From: a virus | Reading direction: 5' to 3' (one strand) | Virus record (IMG/VR): IMGVR_UViG_3300042893_001761 | Coordinates: 1-64,000 of that record | Length of the DNA stretch: 64,000 nt | Shown: positions 24,687 through 60,096 of the stretch, in pieces | How the letters are laid out: every line of letters begins with the position of its first letter | Position numbering within the stretch: position 1 is the stretch's first letter | Position numbers and translations under genes: made by a program | The notes under the pieces: generated by a model | Database searches by the model: none | Seen by the model: only the letters and a program-made list of their open reading frames with translations | Told to the model about the DNA's origin: nothing

Positions 24687-24694
24687 TATAAATA
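24687..24694 (+). promoter_or_regulatory. T4-type late promoter
   Basis: TATAAATA nine bases before ATG 24703. First of a series of such boxes through the head region. Confidence 0.7.
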
Positions 24695-24702
24695 TAGGTA
24701 CT

Positions 24703-25611
24703 ATGGCTAAAGACCTAAAAATTACCGGAAAAGATATAGCTGAAATCCTTAAAAAGAAAAAATTTAAAGTTAAGGACGTAACCAGTACAAAAATAACCGT
24801 AATGGTAAACGGTGATAGAATTGCAAAATTAGAAGATATTGCAACGACACTTTCTAATTTAGGAGCAAAAGTAAATAAAAATCTAAGTGGCTCATCGATT
24901 GGTGGTGTGATAGTCGGAGATGTAAAAATCTACGTTAAAGCCGACGGTAGAACAGGCGGGCTTGATGTCGAACTGGATGCAATTAATAAATTAACCACTG
25001 CTGTATTGAACGCCGTTACGGCGAATGGCGGTCCAATCACTGTTAAATTAAAAAACAGAATTGTTAAAGGAGTCTGTAAGGTCGCTAAAACAAATGGAAC
25101 ACCAAAAAGTGATTTCCATTTAGCTGACTCAAATGGTAGACCTCTTGTGCATATTTCACATAAAAAAGGTTCGACCCCAAGAGACTTTCAACAATGGGGC
25201 GGAGTTACGGAAGACAGAATTGCTGCTCATCCAGAGGTTAAACAATTTGCTGTAAAATGCAAGGCATTATACGGTGAACAAATGCCTAACGGTGAATCCG
25301 CGTATATGCCGATAAAAGATAAAAATCTAAAAATGATGTCGGTATTCGGCGTCAATTATGATACGGGCGGTATTAATGAAAATAAAGTAGATGTTTTATT
25401 ACAAGGCGACCCGGGTCTTGAACAATTATCCAATGGTGTTTTTAGATTAACTGCAACCGGACATGTTCATTATCATGGCGATATACCGTCTGGCGGATTT
25501 GATCCTGTACTTGCAATGATTTATAAAGGCGATAGAAGCCAATTTGATATTAAAGGAGCCAGAGTTTCGATTTACCCCTCTGGCGGCAGAACATTTAAAA
25601 CTCAGCTTTAA
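24703..25611 (+). CDS. late hypothetical protein, possibly nuclease-like
   Basis: 302 residues under a late promoter. The N-terminal ~75 residues are Lys-rich; the centre reads KSDFHLADSNGRPLVHISHKKG then DFQQWGGVTEDRI and HPEVKQF. The D...S-x-K spacing recalls a degenerate PD-(D/E)xK active site. The end is beta-rich and glycine-rich. Similar proteins occur beside head genes of T4-like marine phages as far as I recall, without assigned function. Faces the minus-strand trio tail to tail, overlapping by 4 bases. Confidence 0.5.
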   Translation: MAKDLKITGKDIAEILKKKKFKVKDVTSTKITVMVNGDRIAKLEDIATTLSNLGAKVNKNLSGSSIGGVIVGDVKIYVKADGRTGGLDVELDAINKLTTAVLNAVTANGGPITVKLKNRIVKGVCKVAKTNGTPKSDFHLADSNGRPLVHISHKKGSTPRDFQQWGGVTEDRIAAHPEVKQFAVKCKALYGEQMPNGESAYMPIKDKNLKMMSVFGVNYDTGGINENKVDVLLQGDPGLEQLSNGVFRLTATGHVHYHGDIPSGGFDPVLAMIYKGDRSQFDIKGARVSIYPSGGRTFKTQL

Positions 25612-26228
25612 CCAATACCCATTCCCTTACGGACATCGTGGTACATGGCGTCCTTATGATCAGCCGACATTTTTGAGGGTGCTCCTGCATGGAAGGCTTT
25701 CTTGTTACCCTCGGCAGCATGAGCGCGCATCTTGCTTGCTGAAATACCACTCACACCTTCTGCATCCGGATCACGTTGTCCGGCAGAATGTACAGTAATG
25801 GATTTAAAATTGTAACCCTTGTGTCCACCAGCCGATGGCTTTCCATTGTACTTGTGGAGTAAACCGTGCATCTCCTTGGCGCGGTCGGAACCGACAATCA
25901 CGTGTAGATGCTTTACACCTTTGTCGGATAGATGAGCCGCGTGATGCAGAATCGTTGGGCTTTCCTTACTGGAAGCAACAACATTAGTACCCGGGAAAGC
26001 GTGCTTGGCGTGCTTTACTTTCTGTGCGCCTGTGAGCGGATTCTTCTTTGCGTCCTGCGAGTGAGACACCACAACGGTGTGTCCGGCATTATGCTTCTTT
26101 GCAATTTCGTGGACCTTATTCACCACAGTCTCGTGTCCGTTGGTAATAGGATTCATACGACCGAATGCCAATACATGGTGCGAATCGGCTGCTGCGGCTT
26201 CAGTGACAAATTGTTTGAATGATAGCAT
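25608..26228 (-). CDS. nucleotidyltransferase (adenylyltransferase fold) with capsid-targeting leader
   Basis: 206 residues. LAFGRMNPITNGHETVV (~20-36) is the (H/T)xGH nucleotide-binding motif of NMNAT/PPAT-like transferases, and GISASKMRAHA (~165) the matching ISxxxxR. Residues 1-11, MLSFKQFVTEA, resemble the T4 internal-protein leader MKTYQEFIAEA that directs proteins into the prohead and is cut after xE. So an NAD-type or other nucleotidyltransferase may be packaged in the virion. Last gene of a three-gene minus-strand late operon. Confidence 0.75.
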   Translation of the reverse strand: MLSFKQFVTEAAAADSHHVLAFGRMNPITNGHETVVNKVHEIAKKHNAGHTVVVSHSQDAKKNPLTGAQKVKHAKHAFPGTNVVASSKESPTILHHAAHLSDKGVKHLHVIVGSDRAKEMHGLLHKYNGKPSAGGHKGYNFKSITVHSAGQRDPDAEGVSGISASKMRAHAAEGNKKAFHAGAPSKMSADHKDAMYHDVRKGMGIG

Positions 26229-26230
26229 AA

Positions 26231-26854
26231 TTATTGTGCTCCGTGATACGCCTTAATACTTCCGTTGTGCTGCACGTGCCATGCGTGAATTTTTGTATTA
26301 GGATGCTTTTTACCCAAAGCTAAAGAGTGATCTAAATTCTTAGTGTCGTCGTCGTACACATGCACACTCTTAAATTTATGTTGAGCGATATGATGGTCGA
26401 TTACACGTGCTTTCCTTTCTGCAACGCTACCTGGAGTCTTGTCATTACCTGCTCGGTTTACGTGAATATCATGAATCGGTAGACCGTGCTTTTTAAATTT
26501 AGCAAGGTACTTTTCCTTATCATTCATATCGCCTCTGGCGGTATTGATAATGATCTTATGCTGCGGAGAGTTCCTAATGTTATTATGAATCGCCTTTACC
26601 TTGGCCAACATCTTATGGATGGGATGCGATTCATCATGAAACTTTTTAGAATCTTGAAATTCGCTATAATCGTAGTGGTGACCAGGAGACAATTTATGAG
26701 TATTGTATTCCGAATTGCTTAGGGATGTAACGTGCTTATTTCCGTGCATCACGTGCACCTTTGCATTTGTCTTGAATAGAGTTTCGTCCACATCAAATGA
26801 ATGAAGTGTTCCGTGTTCACCTGCTTCGGCTAAAAACTCAAGGAATGATTTCAT
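26231..26854 (-). CDS. HAD-superfamily phosphatase with capsid-targeting leader
   Basis: 207 residues. HAD motif I is SFDVDETLF (~18-26), motif II IIINTARGD (~102), and motif IV-like VHVYDDDTKNLDH (~166), where the DD pair fits. The polynucleotide phosphatase/acid phosphatase branch is likely. It starts MKSFLEFLAEAGE, a very good match to the T4 capsid-targeting leader with an LAE cleavage site. It lies between the nucleotidyltransferase and ligase-like genes; stop/start overlap of 4 bases with the ligase-like gene. Confidence 0.78.
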   Translation of the reverse strand: MKSFLEFLAEAGEHGTLHSFDVDETLFKTNAKVHVMHGNKHVTSLSNSEYNTHKLSPGHHYDYSEFQDSKKFHDESHPIHKMLAKVKAIHNNIRNSPQHKIIINTARGDMNDKEKYLAKFKKHGLPIHDIHVNRAGNDKTPGSVAERKARVIDHHIAQHKFKSVHVYDDDTKNLDHSLALGKKHPNTKIHAWHVQHNGSIKAYHGAQ

Positions 26855-28074
26855 CCTCTTACTTTGGCAAAGTTTGCTTTTGCAAATTCGGCACGATTCA
26901 CCAGTTTGGTCGGATGAGTCTTACCCTTGAATTTGTGATTCACGACAAAACCTTCGGGCTTCGACTTGGCACCATCGATATGATGCTCCAGACCGCCTTC
27001 ATGGGTCTCAAGGTTCTTTACAAGGGTATTCTTTGCGGCAGCCAGATGACTGTGCATTGAAAGAAGATTATTGTAGTGTCCAGCGTGTTTCGACACGTGG
27101 GAGACATGTTCGGCGCCGGTTGCGTGGTGTCTTGCAACTGCAGCCGGAGTCTTTACCTTTGATGCCAGTTTGGCATGATGACCCATAAGATGCTTTTGGA
27201 AGCCCTGTGCATTTGGCGTCTCGCCGGTACGGACGGTCTGATTAATGTACGTTGAAAGATGTCCTGCCTCGCCCTGGTGCCGCGCGGTTGCTTTGTACAT
27301 TGAGGCGCCGTGCTTGTCGTGAATTGCCTTGGCTGCTCCCATATGTTTATGGAACGCACTTTGATCCGATTTACCGTATTCAACTTTACTTGTATCGTGT
27401 TCGGCAGTCTTGAGATGAACGTCGGGATGCTGTTTAAAATTGTGGGTGTCGGGATGCGGGCTCACCGACATATGCTCGACGCCCGGCTTATTCGGATGCG
27501 GATGATACTGTTGGTGCACTACGATACCGACATGAGATTTCTTTACCTTTTTTTCTTCATCTCCGCGTGCCGTGTAGGTAATAGTGTTGGGAGTGAATGA
27601 GACTGCTTCATGCAGTTTATGATCTTCACGGGTGTGCATGAGGTCGCCTTGATAGACGCCTTGTTTTGGAGCAACCTTTGGAAGATGCTTCAGAGCATGT
27701 TTCAACTTACCGACCAAGCCCGGAGCATGACCATGATGCTTTTCAATGTCGGAATCAGAATAGTTTAATTTTGGATTCTTATTGAAAGCCGACTTGGTCG
27801 CAACAAAGAATTTCTTGGTGACTGGATGATGTCCGAAGACCAATGACGGAGAACCGTCATACTTCATGGTAAGGTCGGAACTATGTTTCTTCGCCTTCAT
27901 ATGCTCGTGCGCATGCATGAGAGCCGCGTGTGCATGTTCAAATCCCTGTGAGCCGTGCATTAACGGTCGGTCTTCCGGATGATGAATATGAGTCAGCTGA
28001 TTGGGATTCGTTGCTTCCGACAACATATCGATGTACGTATCGGCAACAGATTGGAGTGAAAGTAGTTCAAACAT
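26851..28074 (-). CDS. RNA/DNA ligase-like nucleotidyltransferase, probably virion-packaged
   Basis: 407 residues from the ATG at 28074, chosen because a late promoter (TATAAATA on the minus strand, 28090-28083) lies 8 bases upstream; a longer frame to 28263 would overlap the divergent gene. Motif I LTMKYDGSPSLVFG (K-x-D-G, lysine ~75) and a late EGFVVNHKF...KLVN segment match motifs I, IV and V of covalent nucleotidyltransferases (ligases/capping enzymes). Very His-rich in the middle. The N-terminus ends in IDMLSEATNP, a possible prohead-protease site. Confidence 0.65.
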   Translation of the reverse strand: MFELLSLQSVADTYIDMLSEATNPNQLTHIHHPEDRPLMHGSQGFEHAHAALMHAHEHMKAKKHSSDLTMKYDGSPSLVFGHHPVTKKFFVATKSAFNKNPKLNYSDSDIEKHHGHAPGLVGKLKHALKHLPKVAPKQGVYQGDLMHTREDHKLHEAVSFTPNTITYTARGDEEKKVKKSHVGIVVHQQYHPHPNKPGVEHMSVSPHPDTHNFKQHPDVHLKTAEHDTSKVEYGKSDQSAFHKHMGAAKAIHDKHGASMYKATARHQGEAGHLSTYINQTVRTGETPNAQGFQKHLMGHHAKLASKVKTPAAVARHHATGAEHVSHVSKHAGHYNNLLSMHSHLAAAKNTLVKNLETHEGGLEHHIDGAKSKPEGFVVNHKFKGKTHPTKLVNRAEFAKANFAKVRG

Positions 28075-28082
28075 GGATGTTC

Positions 28083-28090
28083 TATTTATA
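28083..28090 (-). promoter_or_regulatory. T4-type late promoter (minus strand)
   Basis: TATTTATA on the + strand reads TATAAATA on the minus strand, 8 bases from the start at 28074. The adjoining plus-strand ATAATAAATA (28087-28096) probably serves the divergent gene at 28105. Confidence 0.7.
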
Positions 28091-28104: not shown

Positions 28105-28812
28105 ATGAAACTTACTCTCGTGACTCCCACATGCAACCGTCAAGAAGCATTTAAACTCTGTGAAAGATTTATGGCTCGACAGACGGTGCCTTACCATCAA
28201 TGGATTGTCTTGGACGATAGCACAATGCCCGTCAATTGCACACTCGGTCAGCAGCATATCCATACGCCCGAGACCAAGGGAAAACAGAGTTTGGTGTTAA
28301 AGTTAAGGAATCTATTTGAGCATCAGGAAATGATTACGGGAGATGCCGTGGTCATTATCGAGGACGATGACTGGTATTCCAAGGACTATCTTGAAAAAAC
28401 AATAGGCTGGTTTAATTCGGGCACCTACGATCTAGTCGGAGAGGGTCGCGCTCTTTATTACAATGTGCTTAAAAGAACGTGGTCGATCCATAGCAATATG
28501 ACCCATTGCAGTCTCTGTCAGAGCTCGTTTAATCGCAATCTATTCCACGAGATGCCCAATATCTTAAAAGATACGTGCCCATTTGTTGATGTTCGCCTCT
28601 GGAACATAAAGAAGGCAAGTAAAAAGATCCATGAACCCAAAGATTTCGAGAGAACTCTTATCGGAATCAAAGGTATGTATGGAGTCAGTGGTGGTTACGG
28701 TAACGGACACAATCGTATCGACGGTACCCGAGACCCAGCACTTGAATTCCTCAGAAAGAATATCGGAGCCGAAGAAACCGAATTGTACCGCGGCTTTTAC
28801 GAAAACAAATAA
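28105..28812 (+). CDS. glycosyltransferase, GT-A fold
   Basis: 235 residues. It begins LTLVTPTCNRQEAF and has VIIEDDDWYSKDYLE (~84-98), the DxD metal site of family 2-like glycosyltransferases. HSNMTHCSLCQSSF and SGGYGNGHN are also present. It probably moves a sugar from a nucleotide-sugar to a protein, lipid or modified DNA base. The acceptor is unknown. Divergent from the late minus-strand operon, with an ATAATAAATA box before it. Confidence 0.75.
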   Translation: MKLTLVTPTCNRQEAFKLCERFMARQTVPYHQWIVLDDSTMPVNCTLGQQHIHTPETKGKQSLVLKLRNLFEHQEMITGDAVVIIEDDDWYSKDYLEKTIGWFNSGTYDLVGEGRALYYNVLKRTWSIHSNMTHCSLCQSSFNRNLFHEMPNILKDTCPFVDVRLWNIKKASKKIHEPKDFERTLIGIKGMYGVSGGYGNGHNRIDGTRDPALEFLRKNIGAEETELYRGFYENK

Positions 28813-29271: not shown

Positions 29272-29724
29272 ATGTTAAGCTTTAAAGACTTTACTCCAGT
29301 ACAGTATACCGGCGGCGAATCAGAACAGCAGGACCTTAACGCAATGAAGCGTAAGCGCCGTCCTATGGATGAAGAGAATGATGCTCTTGATACCCGTAGA
29401 CAGGCCGACATCAAGAAAGATCACGAGAACCTAAAGAGCAAATCCACCGATGAAGTCCATAAGATTCATCAGGGAACACTAGGTAGGGTTCATTCAAAAT
29501 ACACTCCAGCTGAGGTTGGTGGTAAAAGAGCAATGATCGGTGATATTCTTCGCTACCGCCACGGCGATAGACATGTTGCAAAACACTTTGGTCTCGAAGA
29601 AGAAACGGATAACGTAAGTGTTGGAAGAAGCCGCGAGCTAGCGATTATTAAAACTCTCCACGGTTTAGCGGATAAGGATCGTGAAAAAAAGCGGAACCGT
29701 CTGAAAAAGAAGCCTTCTAAGTAA
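29272..29724 (+). CDS. late basic protein, head-associated candidate
   Basis: 150 residues, highly charged (many Lys/Arg/His and Glu/Asp). It starts MLSFKDFTPVQY, resembling the first half of the capsid-targeting leader seen in nearby genes, but without an obvious LxE site. The C-terminus is very basic (KKRNRLKKKPSK). A DNA-associated internal head protein is plausible. First gene of a late operon running to about 32 kb. Confidence 0.55.
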   Translation: MLSFKDFTPVQYTGGESEQQDLNAMKRKRRPMDEENDALDTRRQADIKKDHENLKSKSTDEVHKIHQGTLGRVHSKYTPAEVGGKRAMIGDILRYRHGDRHVAKHFGLEEETDNVSVGRSRELAIIKTLHGLADKDREKKRNRLKKKPSK

Positions 29725-53661: not shown

Positions 53662-54032
53662 GGGCCTGTACTGGATTCGACTCAGTAATAGACTTATAGT
53701 AAGCAAGCAAGGTTCTCCGGATACCTTTTAAAAACTGGTAAAAAGTTAAACGGCATTAATAAAGCCCTCAGCAATTTCTTCGGTTTCGCCGAAGAAATGC
53801 CACTCGCAGCCTAAAAACTGTGATCGAGTAGATAACACAGATTCTCGCTAAGTGTTACACTCGTCATAAAAAGCGAGACCGTCTTGAAGTGGTGTACAAG
53901 ATGTGTATCCTCACCAAAACAATCATGATACAGTATTACGGTATCATGGCGACAGTTAAGTAGTACTAAGCTTGTAGAAAATTATCGGAAAAATTATTGA
54001 ACACAGGGGTTCAACTCCCCTCAGGTCCACCA
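53662..54032 (+). ncRNA. ssrA: tmRNA (transfer-messenger RNA)
   Basis: 371 bases. The tRNA-like ends pair GGGCCTG with CAGGTCC, followed by A and encoded CCA; the 5' side reads TGGATTCGACTC, as in tmRNAs, and the 3' T-arm is GGGG TTCAACT CCCC. The tag frame ends CTC GCA GCC TAA (Leu-Ala-Ala stop, 53803-53814). With GCC as resume codon after TAAA the tag is ALSNFFGFAEEMPLAA. An 8-bp hairpin TTCTTCGG/CCGAAGAA lies within the tag codons. It would rescue stalled ribosomes and tag proteins for proteolysis. Single-piece form. Confidence 0.9.
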
Positions 54033-58637: not shown

Positions 58638-58997
58638 ATGATCAAATTTAACATTGTCATTTCCACTCAGGTTCACGAGAACTACGGAGCCCATGACTGG
58701 GACGGCAAAGGCCAGTGCCCGCAGTACTGGAAAGCCAAGGGTGGTTATGAGTACCGCCATCCGATTGCTCTAGACCTCACCGAGGTCCAGGATCGGTCAA
58801 AGGTCAGTTCCTTTGTGGAAGAGCTTCGTATTGCGGTAACCCGCAACGATGACTCGTGGCAGGAGTACGTCATTGACTGGTACCTTCTTCCCGTGGGCGA
58901 ACTGACCCACGAGGAGAAGCAGCAGGTTGAGTGGCACGGTTCCGTCAAGGAGCCAACCAAGTCGCCCTATAAATTGCAGAATGCCTACGCGGCTTAA
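58638..58997 (+). CDS. conserved phage protein of unknown function
   Basis: 119 residues. It starts IKFNIVISTQVHENYGAHDWDGKG, a segment I know from unannotated phage proteins; further WQEYVIDWYLLPVGELT. No catalytic motif. Confidence 0.6.
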   Translation: MIKFNIVISTQVHENYGAHDWDGKGQCPQYWKAKGGYEYRHPIALDLTEVQDRSKVSSFVEELRIAVTRNDDSWQEYVIDWYLLPVGELTHEEKQQVEWHGSVKEPTKSPYKLQNAYAA

Positions 58998-59004
58998 TTT
59001 TAAC

Positions 59005-60096
59005 ATGAAACTTCTAACACTTTATTCACGCACCTCTACGGGTGCCACGCAGACCTGGACCATCGAAATTGACGGCGGTCGTTACCGCACCATCTATGGT
59101 CAGGTCGATGGTAAGAAAACCACGACCGAATGGTACTATGCCCAGCCCACCAATGTCGGCCGCGCAAATGAACGTAATGCGGAAATGCAGGCGCGCTTTG
59201 AGGCCGATGCAATCTTCCGTAAACGTGAGGAAACAGGTTACCATCTTGATATTAAAAACATCGACAAGCCCACGATGATCGATTGTATGCTGGCGCAGAA
59301 GTTTGAGGACCGTGAAGATGACCTTAAATACCCCGTCTTTTCACAGCCCAAGCTAGATGGCATTCGTTGCCTCTGCACTTCTACGACGATGTTTAGTCGT
59401 CAGGGCAAGATTTTTAAATCGGCTCCGCATATCCTTAAGGCTCTGGAGTCCTTCTTTCAAGAGTTTCCCGATGCCGTTTTGGACGGTGAGCTTTACTGCG
59501 ACAAGTTAAATAATGATTTTAATAAGATTGTGTCGCTGGTCCGTAAGACCAAGCCGACACAGGCTGATCTAGATGAATCTGCCAATGTGATTCAGTATTG
59601 GGTCTATGATGTCATCGATACCAATAAGACATTTAGCGACCGTCGTAAGTGGCTTTGCGGAAACCTTCCGGAAGACGATACCATTGTCCTCGTGGAAACT
59701 TCGGTCGCCTTCGACAAAAAGGACCTTGATACCGAATATGAAAGCTATATGAGCGACGGTTATGAGGGTCAGATGGTTCGCACGGATGGTCTCTATGAAC
59801 GCAAACGGTCAAAGACTCTGCTGAAGCGCAAAGAATTCCAGGACGCCGAATATGAAATCCTTGAAATCGGTGAGGGTACGGGTAACCGCACGGGCATGGC
59901 TGGATTCATGGTACTCAAAAATGATAAGGGTGAGAACTTCAATTCCAACATCAAGGGTTCTCACGAATTCCTTGCCGATCTATTCCAGAACAAGGATCGA
60001 TACATCGGTGAGAAAGCCACGTGCCAGTTCTTCCACCTCAGCCCATACGGTATTCCACGGTTTCCATACGTCACTTCTATCAGAAATTATGAGTGA
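59005..60096 (+). CDS. ATP-dependent DNA ligase with N-terminal WGR-like domain
   Basis: 363 residues from ATG 59005. An N-terminal WGR-like part (TWTIEIDGGRYRTIYGQVDGKK, ~13-34) precedes the ligase core: motif I VFSQPKLDGIRC (lysine ~115), motif III VLDGELYC (~163), motif IV DGYEGQMVR (~252) and motif V LLKRKEFQDAEYEI (~272), then an OB-type end. It seals nicks during replication and repair. Confidence 0.93.
   Translation: MKLLTLYSRTSTGATQTWTIEIDGGRYRTIYGQVDGKKTTTEWYYAQPTNVGRANERNAEMQARFEADAIFRKREETGYHLDIKNIDKPTMIDCMLAQKFEDREDDLKYPVFSQPKLDGIRCLCTSTTMFSRQGKIFKSAPHILKALESFFQEFPDAVLDGELYCDKLNNDFNKIVSLVRKTKPTQADLDESANVIQYWVYDVIDTNKTFSDRRKWLCGNLPEDDTIVLVETSVAFDKKDLDTEYESYMSDGYEGQMVRTDGLYERKRSKTLLKRKEFQDAEYEILEIGEGTGNRTGMAGFMVLKNDKGENFNSNIKGSHEFLADLFQNKDRYIGEKATCQFFHLSPYGIPRFPYVTSIRNYE

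Follow-up and report, generated by a model that had tools for sequence, protein, structure and literature searches.

The first 10 residues of the phage T4 internal protein IPIII are enough for head targeting; residues 4 and 7 of this leader are described as mattering for targeting, with processing relying on residues 8 and 10; the cut by the prohead protease gp21 falls after L/I-x-E (PMC9026906). In the T4 record, ipII and ipIII both start MKTYQEFIAEA. Here we describe an operon whose three enzymes carry leaders resembling this capsid-targeting sequence (CTS). It lies in the window, a 64,000-base stretch of the 66,546-base IMG/VR virus record IMGVR_UViG_3300042893_001761, and encodes a DUF6267 protein, a HAD phosphatase and an HxGH-type nucleotidyltransferase (NTase) (Table 1). 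The likeness to T4 IPI-IPIII comprises a 10-residue leader with aromatics at positions 4 and 7, a hydrophobic residue at 8, E10 and then A, late genes, and a gp21-type protease, here in relatives. The T4 internal proteins are small (IPI is a restriction inhibitor), whereas the cargo here would be enzymes, namely a ligase, a Pnkp-type phosphatase and an HxGH transferase, with predicted cleavage.

The combination of enzymes also has described counterparts. T4 Pnkp-Rnl1 (pseT, rnlA) and bacterial Pnkp1-Rnl-Hen1 likewise join a Pnkp-type 3'-phosphatase to a ligase-fold enzyme, but at the locus studied here the HAD has no kinase domain, the ligase family is divergent, and the genes are late and capsid-tagged. 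T4 Pnkp and Rnl1 are not known to be packaged. T4 mends anticodon-nuclease damage via PseT and RnlA, according to a note in its record. Jumbo-phage RNA repair involves "Swiss-army-knife" and PNK-type HAD phosphatases, which are thought to clean RNA 3' ends beside ligases; capsid leaders and DUF6267 are not mentioned in the available portions of these accounts (PMC7824862, PMC9503650). Cyanophage T4-GC71 (DUF6267) and T4-GC190 (cytidyltransferase/NMNAT) have homologous bodies in the same ligase-then-NTase order, and T4-GC190 has been detected in virions; the cyanophage DUF6267 proteins checked have no leader, unlike that of the window. We give about an even chance to our best explanation of the locus, a late capsid-cargo operon with CTS leaders whose injected enzymes would heal and seal RNA.

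The genes run DUF6267, HAD, NTase on the minus strand, the first two overlapping by 4 bases. The original prediction, made from the letters of the window, had placed such a trio at 25608-28074, and all three open reading frames (ORFs) were found there. The listed ORF of the DUF6267 protein starts at 28263; we prefer the start at 28074 (407 aa, MFELLSLQSVADTYIDMLSEA), because a late promoter stands directly upstream and relatives agree. Its motif, TATAAATA, is present in 12 copies in the window against 2.5 expected (shuffle mean), and none of 100 shuffles reached 12; this enrichment, together with a copy lying 8 nt upstream of the first gene, supports the predicted lateness of the operon. In a check of 31 relatives, 10 have the motif beginning 14-22 nt upstream of the DUF6267 start, and in 6 others the distance is about 50-70 nt. 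Motif copies at 24687, 32313, 43361 and 54782 (plus strand) and at 28090 (minus strand) end 7-9 nt before start codons; at T4 promoter spacing, the late mRNAs of genes so arranged would be nearly leaderless.

The HAD and NTase leaders, MKSFLEFLAEA and MLSFKQFVTEA, match the T4 leader at positions 4, 7, 8 and 10. The predicted cut sites are LAE in HAD, VTE in the NTase and LSE in DUF6267, the V of the NTase site falling outside L/I. The match goes beyond chance: of the window's 562 ATG starts opening at least 60 aa, 3 show a strict leader pattern, namely those of the NTase, HAD and a second NTase, and the 140-kb relative G009 has 2 among 1,111, one of them clearly a false positive. Conservation was examined in 10-mers drawn from homologues chosen by their protein bodies. 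The CTS rule (aromatic at 4, aromatic or hydrophobic at 7, hydrophobic at 8, E10) fits 14 of 15 distinct HAD 10-mers, 17 of 17 for DUF6267 (a set taken from short-form rows only) and 21 of 28 for the NTase. The NTase set includes at least three 10-mers from mis-called starts, which were kept in the count, and at least three of its seven misses are such starts; an aromatic at 4, a hydrophobic residue at 7 and E10 occur together in 22 of the 28. In HAD, E10 is present in 15/15 and F4 in 14/15, and positions 3, 5 and 9 vary. F4 and E10 show little or no variation across 28 HAD and 23 NTase homologues, and the linker behind the leader differs in length and sequence.

DUF6267 of the window clade has a 20-residue leader, whose terminal TYIDMLSE/A (the slash marking the predicted cut) has the same spacing as the short form. 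Among its 35 homologues E20 is nearly invariant, with the 10-residue form in most of the rest, and most short-form relatives start MxSFxxFLKE. The LSEA site noted earlier in the third protein is thus part of a longer leader variant that shares its core with the short leaders. The predicted closeness to the T4 internal-protein leader likewise holds, on the basis of the positional match, the virion proteomes of relatives, and gp21 and gp23 in relatives. These two genes are present in 4 of the 12 records searched, including the trio-bearing G001 and G009, and gp23 of all four has sites of the type [LI]-x-E/[AT] near residues 52-57 (by eye, SLHE/A at residue 57 in G001 and G009, AITE/T at 57 in G002 and LFE/T at 52 in G005).

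Moreover, the leader occurs on other proteins. At L007, L008 and L020 the long leader (MINLQSLHSVANTYISVIAES) heads a 362-aa protein of no relation to the trio; the relative of that protein at L033 (57% identical) has the short leader MKSFKSFLNEE, and the DUF6267 family occurs with both forms. In 96 loci the strict pattern stands at 182 of 7,399 ATG starts opening at least 60 aa; once the first 15 residues are removed, the corresponding 119 distinct sequences form 14 clusters, at least one of them a false positive and several with a single member. These comparisons lend good support to the leader, short or long, as a modular element on unrelated proteins. One strict-pattern ORF, the T4-GC198-like MRIFDDLTEENF, was set aside as a false positive. 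Separately, small leader-bearing proteins (L016:9193-9516, L037:3800-4087 and others) have a common AAVDAKGHKSSTGGLTQKGRDHYNRKTGG segment, which also stands behind an IDE/A site in the protein preceding gp21 in G002 (L105); they are perhaps prohead-core peptides.

Virion proteomes of related cyanophages link the leader to the particle. The strict pattern was derived from the window family before the S-CREM2 proteins were examined, and a loose pattern was tried alongside. Of the 219 annotated ORFs of S-CREM2, 52 are on the published virion list (PMC10665884, Table 3). The strict leader is present in 4 of these 52 and in none of the 167 others (Fisher p=0.0029); the four are gp6 (SAM hydrolase), gp14 (kinase), gp136 and gp154 (cytidylyltransferase), the last a homologue of the operon's NTase. 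A positional rule (F/Y at 4, hydrophobic at 7, E at 9-11) chose 8 S-CREM2 ORFs, 4 of them virion proteins. S-SM1 T4-GC190 (leader MKKFSAFLNEAE) and the S-SCSM1 NMNAT (leader MKSFLQFLKEAA) are also reported in virions (PMC3037559 and PMC9602691, respectively). Virion detection of the NTase homologues is already published, where they are read as an NAD+ enzyme. In S-SCSM1, for which the table count gives 48 coding sequences labelled "virion protein" and the paper states 45, the strict leader occurs on the annotated starts of SSCSM1_31 and SSCSM1_91 (labelled) and SSCSM1_30 (unlabelled), that is, 2/48 against 1/234, which is not significant (about p=0.08). A two-sequence search found leaderless DUF6267 homologues in both phages, S-CREM2 gp87 (E 1.6e-32) and SSCSM1_257 (E 2.7e-21); gp87 is absent from the virion list as published and SSCSM1_257 has no virion label, so packaging is predicted only in lineages where DUF6267 gained the tag. 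The claim that the trio is virion-packaged gains from the NTase homologues in S-CREM2, S-SM1 and S-SCSM1 virions, and the undetected leaderless DUF6267 proteins serve as natural controls for the link between leader and virion. As a separate observation, the virion-detected Cas9-like S-CREM2 gp12 (L057 7704-10313) has a CTS-like RFASFMAEA at about residues 18-26, away from its annotated start; either the leader lies within a longer N-terminus or the start was mis-called. In the open-licence literature, we found no link between cyanophages and capsid targeting beyond "cyanophage" in a reference title.

The leader could instead be a different kind of N-terminal signal, or an N-terminus inherited from a common ancestor, with the enzymes working in the cytoplasm during late infection. 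No processed N-terminus was found reported for these proteins, and the cyanophage DUF6267 proteins checked manage without a leader. Its occurrence on unrelated folds, the swapping of long and short forms, the match at the functional T4 positions and the virion association in S-CREM2 argue the other way, and we regard this alternative as quite improbable.

The AlphaFold (AF2) model of DUF6267 (pLDDT 89.5) points to a ligase. The DUF6267 and HAD models drew on 35 and 28 sequences from the loci, respectively, not all near-identical rows being included; DUF6267 rows with a frameshift or truncation (such as L048, L045 and L049-L051) were excluded. The Foldseek top 50 include Trl1, REL1, Rnl and a DNA-ligase adenylation domain. 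VIA-align re-scored Foldseek's 1000 candidates, a second look at the same output, and every one of its best 50 rows is an RNA or DNA ligase (Z from 9.2 down to 6.0), led by the N. gruberi RNA ligase (Z 9.2, root-mean-square deviation (rmsd) 3.5, 184 residues) and including T4 Rnl2 (8.7), REL1 (8.4), Trl1 (8.2) and DNA ligases (at most 7.1). With the Naegleria RNA ligase, T4 Rnl2 and T. brucei REL1, DUF6267 shares the adenylyltransferase fold and, in order, KxDG, a motif III-like glycine-acid, an EG motif IV and a lysine motif V; it differs from them in its roughly 11% identity and in having a helical insertion, at about residues 235-355, that separates motifs IIIa and IV. The motif order, K71YDG at a strand end, YQGD 141-144, GIVVH 183-187, PEGFVV 373-378 and TKLVN 389-393, fits ligases, and K71, D73, G74, Y141, Q142, G143, D144, G183, H187, P373, E374, G375 and K390 are invariant in the 35 homologues. 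Sequence searches of the PDB with the DUF6267 and HAD profiles gave no useful match, hhalign gave no usable match of DUF6267 to T4 Rnl1, and Pfam RNA_ligase had no match in the records searched; the fold claims for both proteins thus rest on models. On this basis, DUF6267 is well supported as a predicted covalent nucleotidyltransferase of the RNA-ligase fold. Matches to the family turned up in 466 of 50,697 phage records, and it is not named in any paper found in the open-licence literature.

A role for DUF6267 as the replicative ligase of the phage was rejected, since a T4-type DNA ligase is encoded elsewhere in the record, which leaves DUF6267 free for another substrate. RNA is favoured over DNA, given that RNA ligases head the structural ranking and that the phage encodes this DNA ligase. 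The trio could nevertheless be capsid-packaged DNA repair, acting on nicks or breaks in the incoming genome caused by host restriction or packaging damage, with RNA not a substrate. DNA ligases do follow the RNA ligases among the VIA matches listed (Z up to 7.1), and PADLOC weakly matches the convergent neighbour at 24703-25611 to a type II restriction enzyme (E 6.2e-7). The activity of T4 Pnkp-type phosphatases on DNA as well as RNA also counts in favour of DNA repair. Given the best-ranked structures, which are RNA ligases at Z 8-9 versus about 7 or less for DNA ligases, and the T4-type DNA ligase of the phage, we consider DNA repair unlikely.

The HAD model (pLDDT 85.8) is closest to the T4 Pnkp phosphatase (5uj0; Z 14.2, rmsd 2.5, 134 residues). 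VIA rows 1 and 4 are T4 Pnkp and rows 2 and 3 bacterial Pnkp1 (Z 14.2-13.4), with the next unrelated HAD at 13.0; given this small margin, the fold alone sets Pnkp apart from other HADs just slightly. D21, D23, T25, T105, R107, K148, D168 and D169 are invariant in 28 homologues and align with T4 Pnkp catalytic residues, which we take to be D165, D167, T169, S211, R213, K258, D277 and D278. At the position of T4 Pnkp R176 the HAD family has K or R. The hhalign comparison with T4 Pnkp was weak (probability 23, E 0.0009 over 40 columns), and a Pfam TAT_ubiq match was set aside as chance. Model and active site together lend good support to a Pnkp 3'-phosphatase fold and a putative 3'-phosphatase. 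The protein is Pnkp-phosphatase-like and not a Pnkp: it is a 207-aa HAD alone, with no linked 5'-kinase domain. The predicted pairing of a Pnkp-like phosphatase with a ligase-like enzyme is thus supported by the T4 Pnkp-type fold and active site and by the DUF6267 ligase fold.

The assignment of the third enzyme is broader. The NTase matches Pfam CTP_transf_like at cut-off and NCBIfam cyt_tran_rel just below it, three NCBIfam NMNAT models match weakly (E 0.007-0.03, far below cut-offs), and a PDB profile search returned PPAT and NMNAT alike; an NCBIfam GBS_alph_likeN match and ankyrin matches of the profile were set aside as chance. It is an HxGH-type nucleotidyltransferase, probably a cytidyl/adenylyltransferase, and NMNAT-like by weak matches. 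In 44 of 52 DUF6267 loci an NTase (at least 40% identity) lies downstream on the same strand, and in the other 8 the locus breaks off close to the gene or inside it. L004 and L006, 98% identical in DUF6267, cleanly lack HAD, and many of 47 loci have HAD homologues without DUF6267 within the fetched flanks; searches with the HAD profile came up empty in S-CREM2, in S-SCSM1 and in those portions of S-PM2, ACG-2014h and S-SM1 that were fetched. In Pelagibacter phage HTVC008M, DUF6267 and the cytidyltransferase/NTase are separated, in the same operon, by gp129 (L055 7742-8404), a P-loop kinase (Zeta_toxin/AAA_33; E 3e-13 for Zeta_toxin and 8.5e-8 for the phrog polynucleotide kinase). We read the cargo operon as a ligase-NTase core with exchangeable healing enzymes.

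Since the conserved partner of DUF6267 is the NTase and not HAD, and the published reading is NMNAT, an NAD+ or nucleotide module keeps a small share of the probability. Here the NTase would be an NMNAT restoring defence-depleted NAD+, HAD a nucleotidase, and DUF6267 would transfer AMP or nucleotides without ligation. The reading of virion-detected NTase homologues as NMNAT in the published accounts (PMC9602691, PMC10665884), the weak NMNAT equivalog matches and the DUF6267-NTase core speak for it. Against it, HAD is nearest to polynucleotide 3'-phosphatases rather than nucleotidases, DUF6267 has a ligase fold, and NadV (NAMPT) was found in 1 of 12 records and in none of the trio-bearing ones, some of which are fragments.

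From the operon, late promoter, conserved leaders, folds, active-site residues and leader-virion link in relatives, all computed, we infer packaging and cleavage in the window phage, ligase and phosphatase activities, an RNA substrate and a purpose. We hypothesize that the aromatics at positions 4 and 7 dock each trio protein in the prohead core, and that gp21 then cuts after E10 (E20 in DUF6267), releasing mature enzymes that would exit the head together with the DNA. DUF6267, as a member of the RNA-ligase group, would use ATP to ligate nucleic acid and HAD would act as a T4 Pnkp-like 3'-phosphatase, the two healing 3' ends and sealing RNA breaks. The target would most likely be tRNA cut by host anticodon nucleases, repaired before phage protein synthesis. 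The NTase, as an NMNAT-like adenylyltransferase, would be co-packaged, perhaps restoring NAD+.

Several results weigh against this injected RNA-repair operon. Neither gp21 nor gp23 was found in the 66.5-kb fragment; the gp21-like protease of the original prediction occurs in 4 of 12 records, G001 and G009 among them. Within the trio families, virion detection concerns NTase homologues only. The looser pattern is not enriched in S-CREM2 virions (7/52 versus 14/167, p=0.29), one of the three strict-leader S-SCSM1 ORFs, SSCSM1_30, has no virion label, and the S-CBWM1 NMNAT has no leader yet is reported in virions (PMC9602691). Foldseek alone gave no match at E<=0.001 for the DUF6267 or HAD model. 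HAD occurs in just 12 of the 52 DUF6267 loci and the window's record has no convincing 5' kinase (no P-loop kinase passed the cut-off in the 12 records), which counts against a full end-healing set.

Table 1. Positions of the operon, its leaders and promoter, and two other genes in the window (a slash marks the predicted cut)
Feature	Position	Strand	Evidence
DUF6267 protein, 407 aa	26851..28074	-	Pfam PF19782 E 7.5e-89; KYDG at residues 71-74 (27864-27853)
Long 20-residue DUF6267 leader, core TYIDMLSE/A	28015..28074	-	E20 nearly invariant in 35 homologues
HAD phosphatase, 207 aa	26231..26854	-	T4 Pnkp 3'-phosphatase type (putative); facultative member
HAD capsid-targeting-like leader MKSFLEFLAE/A	26825..26854	-	Positions 4, 7, 8, 10 kept in 14/15 distinct 10-mers
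HxGH-type NTase, 206 aa	25608..26228	-	phrog_3041 E 1.5e-60; TNGH + ISASKMR signature
NTase capsid-targeting-like leader MLSFKQFVTE/A	26199..26228	-	F4 and E10 nearly invariant, 23 homologues
T4-type late promoter TATAAATA	28083..28090	-	8 nt before DUF6267 start codon
Second HxGH nucleotidyltransferase, 301 aa	29727..30632	+	phrog_395 E 2e-44; strict leader MKSFIQFVSES
ATP-dependent DNA ligase, T4-type	58927-60096		PHROG match

The second NTase, on the strand opposite to the operon, is of the same putative cargo class as the trio. Adjoining it, a 150-aa protein at 29272-29724 (plus strand) begins MLSFKDFTPVQYTGGE, which is leader-like without E10. The convergent gene at 24703-25611 (plus strand; phrog_13937) and the end of the NTase gene overlap by 4 bases; PADLOC named no protein of the trio. 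By PHROG matches, the window also has a T4-type replication region with DNA polymerase, clamp loader, UvsX, replicative helicase and NrdA/NrdB. ARAGORN found 29 tRNA genes and a tmRNA, and Rfam, at the gathering threshold, 26 tRNAs and the tmRNA; the latter, at 53662-54032 (RF00023, 105.6 bits, tag GINKALSNFFGFAEEMPLAA), lies inside the cluster of 29 tRNA genes.

Taken together, we tentatively propose, as a possibility somewhat short of even, that T4-like phages of the window group swap CTS tags of 10-20 residues between enzymes, and that one cargo set is an injected kit for tRNA end healing and sealing, with a new RNA-ligase family, a free-standing Pnkp-type 3'-phosphatase and an NMNAT. DUF6267 would gain a function class, the RNA-ligase fold, from the structure model. 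The leader would serve as a sequence rule predicting which T4-like phage enzymes are packaged, which bears on the doubt voiced in the S-CREM2 and S-SCSM1 papers whether enzymes detected with virions are genuine cargo or contamination. It also raises the question whether phages deliver ready-made enzymes for nucleic-acid repair so as to counter tRNA- or DNA-cutting defence at time zero. If so, defence-cut tRNA would be repaired ahead of all phage gene expression, whereas T4 waits for its early genes.

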